Of a DNA stretch of 64,000 nt, positions 7,983 through 58,255 are shown piece after piece. Made by a program: the position numbers and the translations under genes. The stretch is from Mugil cephalus (taxonomy: Eukaryota; Chordata; Actinopteri; Mugiliformes; Mugilidae), in the NCBI RefSeq assembly GCF_022458985.1, contig NC_061786.1, positions 19,784,974-19,848,973 of the forward strand. Direction: 5' to 3'. The notes under the pieces were generated by a model that saw only the letters and a program-made list of their open reading frames with translations, did not search any database and was not told the DNA's origin. Each line of letters opens with the position of its first letter. The stretch's first letter is position 1.

Positions 7983-8021
7983 CACAGTGCTTCAGATTCC
8001 ACTAAACCCAATACAAAAACC

Positions 8022-56295: not shown

Positions 56296-56772
56296 ATGAC
56301 TTACTCCATTCCCAGTTCTGTACTTTTCTCGGATCTCTGTGCAATAATTAGACTTTTTGTTTGCTGTTTCCTCACAGGTAACACCTGCTTCACCGTGTGT
56401 TTATTTTATCACATTTTAAATCATTAATCTGCCCGACTCTGCTCTCAGCAGGTATCGCTCTGGGGATTCAGATCCATCAGTCGCCTTCTTCTCTCATCAG
56501 CGAGAAAGGCGCTGAAGTTCAGCTAATCTGTACCCACGACCAAAGTGACTACAGAGTGATGCTCTGGTACCAGCGATCACCCGGAGACACGGCTCTGAAA
56601 CTCATCGGCTTCGGCTACACGCAGTTCAAAGACGACAGCGTGGAAGAGCCTTTCAGAAAACATTTCAAACTGGCTGGAGATCTGAGCGGAAACAGAAAAA
56701 ATGGTTCACTTTTCATAAAAGACCTGAACGTCCTTGAACACACGGCAACGTATCTCTGTGCTGCTAGTAAGC
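56296..56772 (+). CDS. TRBV: V48: TCR beta V gene, family E-like
   Basis: Leader exon 56296-56377 is long (27 codons; MTYSIPSSVLFSDLC then a hydrophobic run). Intron 74 bp; V exon 56452-56772 after a cagcag acceptor pair that could give two splice forms differing by one codon. IQIHQSPSSLISEKGAEVQLIC, CDR1 HDQSDYR, VMLWYQRSPGDTALKLIGF, CDR2 GYTQFKDDSVEE, TATYLCAASK. RSS: cacagta 56773-56779, spacer 23, acaaaaacc 56803-56811. No coding defect seen. Confidence 0.88.
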
Positions 56773-56811: not shown

Positions 56812-57763
56812 TCCTCCCCTCTCCACTCTGAACGTGCATCATCCCCCAGTGAGATCTGTGGTCTGACTGACTGGCTCCCATTACACCCAGAAATCCTTTA
56901 CAGTCAGCAGCATGACACTCAGCATAAGCTGAGCATGCAATTGTGATCCTACTCTGGAAGAATCTGGAAAAAAAAAAGATCAAAAATAAAGTTTAAAAGT
57001 CATTTGTTGAGGTGGTTAGAATTTTATCTCCAAAGATAAGACTTTATTTATTCCTGCAGGAGACCAACCGAGGAAAATATTAAAAAAAAAAAAATAAATA
57101 AAATAAGGTACAACAAGAGAAACTATGTATATGTTAAAGGCACATAAGCTAGTATTAATCAAAGGTAAGAAAGAAATAAAACATCTGTTTAAACATGTTA
57201 TTCTTTTAATACTTAATGTGCAAACTGTAACTTAAATAAATAAAATAAAATGAGGGGAGATAATTTTTTTTTTAGGTAATGATTTTATGAATAAATGTTT
57301 AGTGTGTTCTCTGCAGTCAGTGTGTTGAATTATCCTTATATCTCTTTTTTTGCAGTATTGAAAGTGGTACATTTATAAGTATTTTCCTTTCTGTCTTTTA
57401 TTATCGTCTTCGTGTGTGACTGCGTAAAATGTGCATACACAGTCATGTAAGTGACATGATATGGAAATTAACACAACAACAACAATAATAATAATAATAA
57501 AGAAAAGTGTTTCATTTTTGATAACCTTTCTGCTGTGTTGGAGTATGACGTTGGGGACTGGTTGAAATACTTCCTTCATATTGTTAGAAATATGCTGAAA
57601 ATATTTCTGTAAATCAACCAATAAATAAAAGTTTTAACACTTGGATTAAAAACTACAAATGAGTTCATTCTAAACAAAGCTCTGCTTTTTCTACATCACT
57701 TCCTGTCTCTCCTCCTGATTCACAAAGTACTGCAGCGACTCCAGTTGGTTCCCGACATTCACC
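56812..57763. other. AT-rich spacer upstream of V49
   Basis: An A-rich run near 57080-57098, an (aac)n(aat)n tract at about 57470-57500, and otherwise AT-rich sequence. Near 57690-57705 ctacatcacttcctgt reads on the minus strand as an ETS-like caggaagt next to agtgatgtag, which resembles the Vbeta decamer; these lie about 65 bp before V49. Confidence 0.45.
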
Positions 57764-58217
57764 ATGAAGCCGTCTCATCTCATCATCTGTACCATCACTG
57801 TGTTCTGGATCAAAGGTATCGATAAACTCTTCCTCTTTTAAGATGAATAAACATTTCCTCAAGTCTTTGCTTATACTCACTTTTTATTTTCTACATCTCT
57901 TTACAGGTGTTTACCTCAATAAACAAGATCAAGTGTTTCAGTCTCCACGTGAACTCGTGACCAAACCGAACAGTGAAGTTAAACTCACATTGAAACATAC
58001 CATCCAGTCCTATGACACCATTCTCTGGTACCAGCGCTCACCAGGAGACACTGCACTGAAGCTCATCGGCTACATGAATTATAAAACTCCTAAGGTTGAG
58101 CCGTCGTTTCAAGGCCACTTCAACGTGAGTGGAGACGGAGAGAAGGAGGCTTATCTTCACATCCTGAAGCCGAATCACTCTAAAGACACGGGAGAATATT
58201 TTGGAGCAGCTAGTATG
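57764..58217 (+). CDS. TRBV: V49: TCR beta V gene, family F, lacking both disulfide cysteines
   Basis: Leader exon 57764-57815 (MKPSHLIICTITVFWIK), 91-bp intron, V exon 57907-58217, fully open. It has QVFQSPRELVTKPNSEV, ILWYQRSPGDTALKLIGY and CDR2 MNYKTPKVEP. The first Cys is Leu (TTG 57990-57992, in KLTLKH) and the second is Gly (GGA 58203-58205, in GEYFGAAS). RSS is consensus: cacagtg 58218-58224, spacer 22, acaaaaacc 58247-58255. Each codon is two base changes from any Cys codon. It is either a pseudogene without frame damage or a V domain without the usual disulfide bond. Confidence 0.85.
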
Positions 58218-58255
58218 CACAGTGTTGAAGACAGCGACTCTTCCTTACAAAAACC

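Follow-up and report, generated by a model that had tools for sequence, protein, structure and literature searches.

The window analyzed here, a stretch of 64,000 nucleotides (C17:19784974-19848973), contains a V gene, V49, in which neither canonical cysteine of the V domain is present. Direct reading and a script agreed that TTG and GGA codons stand at the two sites, as a preliminary description had stated, and its account of a gene otherwise intact also held, the leader, splice sites, conserved tryptophan, open frame and 23-type recombination signal sequence (RSS) all being in place (Table 1). The 22-nt spacer of the RSS is the same as in many neighboring V segments. In IMGT terms, the open frame, splice sites and RSS are those of a functional (F) gene and the residues are not, since Trp 41 is present while Cys 23 and Cys 104 are absent; none of the pseudogene (P) lesions (stop, frameshift, lost splice site or RSS) was found in V49 or in the two copies, B and C, described below. 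No other cysteine was found in the mature domain of V49, and hence no compensating one. Counts over stop-free segments gave TGT or TGC as the cysteine codons (120 segments for the first site, 121 for the second), and both replacement codons are two bases away from these. This distance is not per se a sign of selection, because a single change suffices to lose a cysteine.

Table 1 Features of V49, with positions counted along the window
Feature	Position	Strand	Details
V49 gene	57764..58217	+	ATG at 57764; read directly and by script
Leader exon	57764..57815	+	MKPSHLIICTITVFWIK plus first base of next codon; equal length in B and C
Leader intron	57816..57906	+	Phase-1, GT...AG; indels relative to copies B and C
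V exon	57907..58217	+	103 codons, open throughout, without cysteine
Leu (TTG) in place of first canonical Cys (IMGT 23)	57990..57992	+	Common to B and C
Gly (GGA) in place of second canonical Cys (IMGT 104)	58203..58205	+	Common to B and C
Framework-2 stretch	58020..58071	+	88% identical to V48 counterpart (56559-56610)
V recombination signal (23-type RSS)	58218..58255	+	CACAGTG, 22-nt spacer, nonamer ACAAAAACC
5' flank	57690..57763	+	Alignable with C; contains ATCACTTCCTGTC, also present in C, with TCACTTCCTGTC present in B

The motif [AC]CTTCCTG[TC], with what is presumably an Ets-like core, is retained in the 5' flanks of V49, B and C and is a possible promoter element; the signal is weak, with 18 of 137 V segments carrying the motif 330-900 nt upstream of the RSS, compared with 1 of 100 shuffled stretches. 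V49, B and C also carry two glycosylation sequons each, which we set aside as compensation for the missing disulfide because many V segments elsewhere in the locus have NSS motifs too.

We examined 100 kb on each side of the window and 8 kb more. Downstream of V49 and in the same orientation are J-beta of the type NYEAYFGQGTKLTVL (FGxGTKLTVL) and C-beta at C17:19869365-19870848. A second cluster comprises J-beta at 19946227-19948754 and a C1 domain recognized by family search at 19955256, and a D-like 12-RSS precedes each J-C cluster (at 19867892 and 19945642). These sequence features identify a TRB locus in which J and C form two clusters, and the downstream J-beta and C-beta bear out the earlier assignment of V49 to TCR beta. 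On the same chromosome, ~3.3 Mb away, C17:16353338-16547401 holds a dense cluster of V-set and C1-set matches.

A DNA search of the genome (635 Mb, 24 contigs) with V49 as query recovered two copies, both in the same TRB locus and both with open frames and the TTG and GGA codons at the cysteine sites. Copy B (C17:19853082-19853653; 96% DNA identity to V49) sits where the V49 region has been duplicated over 7.5 kb (95.7% identical), and copy C (C17:19929546-19930135) lies ~87 kb away in a block with short BLAST matches mainly at V genes. C is 78% identical to V49 over the gene including the intron and near flanks and 85% over the exons; its heptamer is CACAGTA. Sequencing or assembly error is ruled out by the identity of both codons in the three copies. 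Judged by sequence, the finding exceeds the lone gene of the preliminary description, being a three-member TRBV subfamily.

To place this subfamily in the array, we scanned 19684974-19957000 for V segments, requiring a 23-type RSS and a WY-type motif and leaving badly decayed segments uncounted. Among the 137 RSS-bearing V segments scanned, 134 have the first-site cysteine, the exceptions being V49, B and C, and 133 have the second, the exceptions being the same three and a segment at 19928406 that has a gap there; only V49, B and C are without both. The segment at C17:19928406, in the block of C, keeps its first cysteine and has lost the region of the second (HSAVSTAARY), and is thus a single loss adjoining the double-loss family. 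In five of the 137 segments (window positions 7983 and 60058; C17:19765571, 19766872 and 19855453) the sole stop is the final codon ahead of the heptamer, which rearrangement trimming could remove. From C17:19845531 to 19861196, V-bearing repeat units of ~0.9 kb are 95-97% identical and one V (19859583) has an internal stop, a sequence pattern of recent birth-and-death in the array.

V49, B and C grouped together (94/87) in a tree of 39 V domains, and their sister (95/88) was C20V1, a TRBV-like segment at C20:6884168-6884458 (46% protein identity; heptamer far from consensus) that keeps both cysteines (TGC and TGT). Because this sister retains them, the loss of the two cysteines most likely took place on the branch leading to the V49 family. 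C20V1, whose RSS was read by eye as CACCACG-23-ACAAAAACC, belongs to a second TRB-like locus (C20:6873850-6887600) with two V segments and a C-beta-like domain that carries a lysine-rich insert absent from the C17 C-beta. Recent spread of the lesion among the three genes by gene conversion is unlikely, since V49 and C differ near the first codon on both sides (AAACTCACATTGAAACATA vs AGGCTCACATTGACACATG) and also around the second.

The absence of a stop or frameshift, on which the preliminary description had leaned, is a weak argument when taken from one gene, and the paralogs B and C provide the test that it needed. Of 363 coding bases, 54 are different between V49 and C, with no exon indel and no stop. 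Their exons are 79% and 86% identical, whereas the intron is 60% identical and has three indels; BLAST matches reach ~75 bp upstream of the ATG and ~45 bp downstream of the RSS, and in a forced alignment identity falls to 51-54% in the 300-bp flanks and to 40-43% farther out. Under neutral drift by substitution only, the probability of no stop is 0.12-0.17 for 54 changes and 0.10-0.14 for 60. An indel-free outcome has a probability of 0.067 if indels arise at 0.05 per substitution, of 0.0015 at 0.12 and of 1.7e-6 at 0.246, the last ratio being that of the whole 7.5-kb duplicate with V49 and B (51 gap openings to 207 mismatches).

The dN/dS check put forward in the preliminary description gave a value of about 0.55 (pairwise omega for V49 and C, 0.52-0.55; three-sequence estimate, 0.55), which lies below 1 and by itself does not differ significantly from it (likelihood-ratio 3.41 vs omega 1, p = 0.065; deviance 3.95 at omega 0.3 and 3.41 at 1.0). 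For the V exon part, the V49-C value of 0.553 equals the median of stop-free V pairs at 10-20% divergence, a median taken from 400 pairs drawn at random from 418, two of the 400 being Cys-less pairs themselves. The Cys-less family may be under weaker constraint than its cysteine-bearing neighbors, because six cysteine-bearing pairs across the same blocks gave lower omega (0.26-0.47; likelihood-ratio 6.4-21.2 for each); five of these pairs are more diverged (61-77% identity), and the one of like divergence (84%) has an omega of 0.36. Between V49 and B no constraint is visible (omega 0.73 over the full sequence and 1.6 over the V exon, from three synonymous and five nonsynonymous codons), and four recent cysteine-bearing duplicate pairs are similar in this respect (0.78-1.40). 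The dS of V49 and C (0.25-0.28) is below that of two cysteine-bearing neighbor pairs (0.39 and 0.68), so earlier gene conversion may have cut the span of time over which this pair tests constraint.

Conservation was ranked from representative segments with a first-site cysteine, 35 for the entropy permutation and 34 for the Fisher test. Amino-acid changes between V49 and C fall on 1 of 33 positions in the most conserved third and on 23 of 64 elsewhere (Fisher, p = 1.5e-4; mean-entropy permutation, p = 0.0006). The ratio of nonsynonymous to synonymous codons is 1:4 in the conserved third vs 23:4 elsewhere (p = 0.0086), a contrast that controls for mutation rate and conversion. Two cysteine-bearing neighbor pairs from the same blocks show a like pattern (4/30 vs 22/60 and 3/32 vs 20/64), and the four changes between V49 and B show no avoidance of conserved positions (1/33 vs 3/64, p = 0.21). 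Thus, on the basis of one old split, the family appears to have kept changing as a V domain does after the disulfide was lost.

We compared these sequences with known V domains through profile and structure searches. Pfam V-set bit scores are 18.6 for V49, 22.5 for B and 25.7 for C, compared with 33.1-41.6 for three cysteine-bearing segments of the window, and a profile search with V49 at E 0.001 gave no match. Because all three scores are under the cut-off of 26, Cys-less V genes are easily dropped by profile-based annotation. AlphaFold2, run on V49 together with 21 other V segments of the window, modeled V49 as a V-type sandwich (mean pLDDT 85.2, pTM 0.79) with the leucine (residue 28) in strand 24-30 and the glycine (99) in strand 96-102; the cysteine-bearing neighbor V48, modeled with the same 22 sequences, reached a pLDDT of 79.6 and a pTM of 0.72. 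By their titles, the 50 PDB matches listed by Foldseek are chains of antibodies or TCRs plus a surrogate light chain, and among these matches is murine V-beta 8.2 (2apt, Vb8.2; TM 0.81). AlphaFold2 confidence hardly responds to the loss of a disulfide, and as a prediction the model, with its PDB matches, shows a sequence compatible with the V fold and says nothing on stability.

With four side-chain heavy atoms, the Leu+Gly pair equals Cys+Cys. In the part of a preprint on engineered Cys-free Fv used here, each replaced pair has at most four side-chain heavy atoms and the fold is kept, the pairs being Ala/Ala and Val/Ala plus one neighboring change (PMC13252536); another disulfide-free design, in the text consulted, uses a Ser/Thr pair. 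The corresponding texts on VH domains and scFv report that putting cysteines back raised the Tm by ~10 degrees (PMC9388512) and that a Cys-to-Val/Ala scFv went into inclusion bodies (PMC5734687). In such domains, losing the disulfide costs stability, a point against a working Cys-less V domain.

We propose that V49, B and C are a TRBV subfamily whose common ancestor lost both B-F disulfide cysteines and which has probably been maintained as a protein-coding V gene since then. The three genes share the double loss, an intact anatomy and the TRB locus, and their exons are conserved in a manner that avoids change at conserved positions. More tentatively, and with chances that we would put slightly short of even, they may encode a germline alpha-beta TCR V domain that folds and functions naturally without its intradomain disulfide, had its two cysteines replaced in the ancestor by a volume-matched Leu/Gly pair, and was maintained and duplicated as a subfamily. 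V49 would then rearrange through its RSS to D, J and C and be translated as a TCR beta chain, in which Leu23 packing on Gly104 would close the core of the V domain. Because Leu+Gly match Cys+Cys in side-chain heavy atoms, the core volume would be kept, with stability coming from packing in place of the bond.

The two readings offered in the preliminary description, a young pseudogene and a tolerated or selected loss giving a disulfide-free V domain, can be weighed against this proposal. The pseudogene is disfavored: both cysteines were already gone when V49 and C diverged, and the open frame, indel-free exons and conserved-position pattern have outlasted that divergence. The disulfide-free domain finds its support at the level of sequence. 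A neutral or nearly neutral relic, that is, a poorly folding V domain whose three open reading frames have escaped stops and frameshifts by luck, is unlikely in our view. Its escape from stops alone would be no great surprise at the probabilities given above, but stops do occur in the array at such divergence, since 7 of the 137 segments have an internal one and these are 85-98% identical to some stop-free segment. The failure of dN/dS alone to reject neutrality, the stronger constraint on the six cysteine-bearing pairs, the unconstrained V49-B pair and the ORF class given by IMGT-style rules would all suit a relic; exons free of indels despite those in the intron and flanks would not, nor would the avoidance of conserved V-fold positions seen in the nonsynonymous and synonymous codons.

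A role in DNA or RNA, with V49 serving as donor or acceptor when V exons undergo conversion, or as a substrate for rearrangement, and yielding no working protein, draws on the intact RSS and on framework 2, which in V48 and V49 is 88% identical over 52 nt in domains that are 47% identical in protein. This likeness is expected from conversion and suggests exchange between V families or a DNA-level constraint. Such a role predicts no amino-acid-specific avoidance, however, and the protein pattern persists when framework 2 is left out (1/21 conserved vs 23/55 other positions, p = 0.0011), which makes it a distinctly improbable account of the family. It is more improbable still that selection favored the loss of both cysteines in a special chain with different pairing or signaling, or with a role outside the usual alpha-beta receptor; both losses are fixed and the volume-matched Leu/Gly pair is kept in both diverged lineages, but the RSS, leader and neighbor alignment of V49 look ordinary, and nothing else unusual was found in the gene.

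The intradomain disulfide is counted among the features that define a rearranging V domain, and under IMGT-style rules a V segment lacking it is denied functional status. If our proposal is true, a maintained Cys-less subfamily would be to nature what engineered disulfide-free antibodies are to the laboratory and would show a residue pair chosen by evolution, and real receptors may be overlooked by repertoire tools that use Cys104 as the CDR3 anchor.

Among known systems, the IMGT ORF class, to which the rules as given in the text used (PMC10464911) assign genes with altered conserved residues, resembles V49 in combining an open frame with changed conserved residues, and V49 would be placed there; the class presumes misfolding, whereas the V49 family, once its cysteines were gone, changed in a way that spares the conserved V-fold positions. 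In human repertoires, the productive fraction is about 90% for functional V genes and about 30% for pseudogenes and ORFs (PMC4657264). In rainbow trout, 12 TRBV genes are classed as ORF, with their individual defects unstated in that text (PMC10464911). Within the open-access papers searched, which give no individual defects for the 12 trout genes, a TRBV subgroup without both cysteines was not found, and this is no proof that none exists. V domains working without one or both cysteines are known from the antibody ABPC48, in which one VH cysteine is missing (PMC5734687, in the part used), and from engineered scFv and VH, but these are a single antibody or laboratory constructs, whereas the V49 family is a germline subfamily, and the Leu/Gly pair was not found among the engineered pairs in the portions used of three sources (PMC5734687, PMC9388512 and PMC13252536). 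The nearest precedent, as far as the consulted part of its description goes, is the teleost TRAV1 subgroup, in which Cys23 is replaced by Tyr in salmonids; relatives without Cys23 are found in other salmonids, stickleback, lump, goby, flounder and cod, and salmon TRAV1 is counted among productive rearrangements in a figure legend (PMC8559430). TRAV1 and the V49 family are alike as whole fish V subgroups in which a canonical cysteine has been replaced, but TRAV1 is a TRA subgroup changed at the first cysteine only (Tyr), whereas the V49 family is TRB and has both replaced (Leu and Gly).
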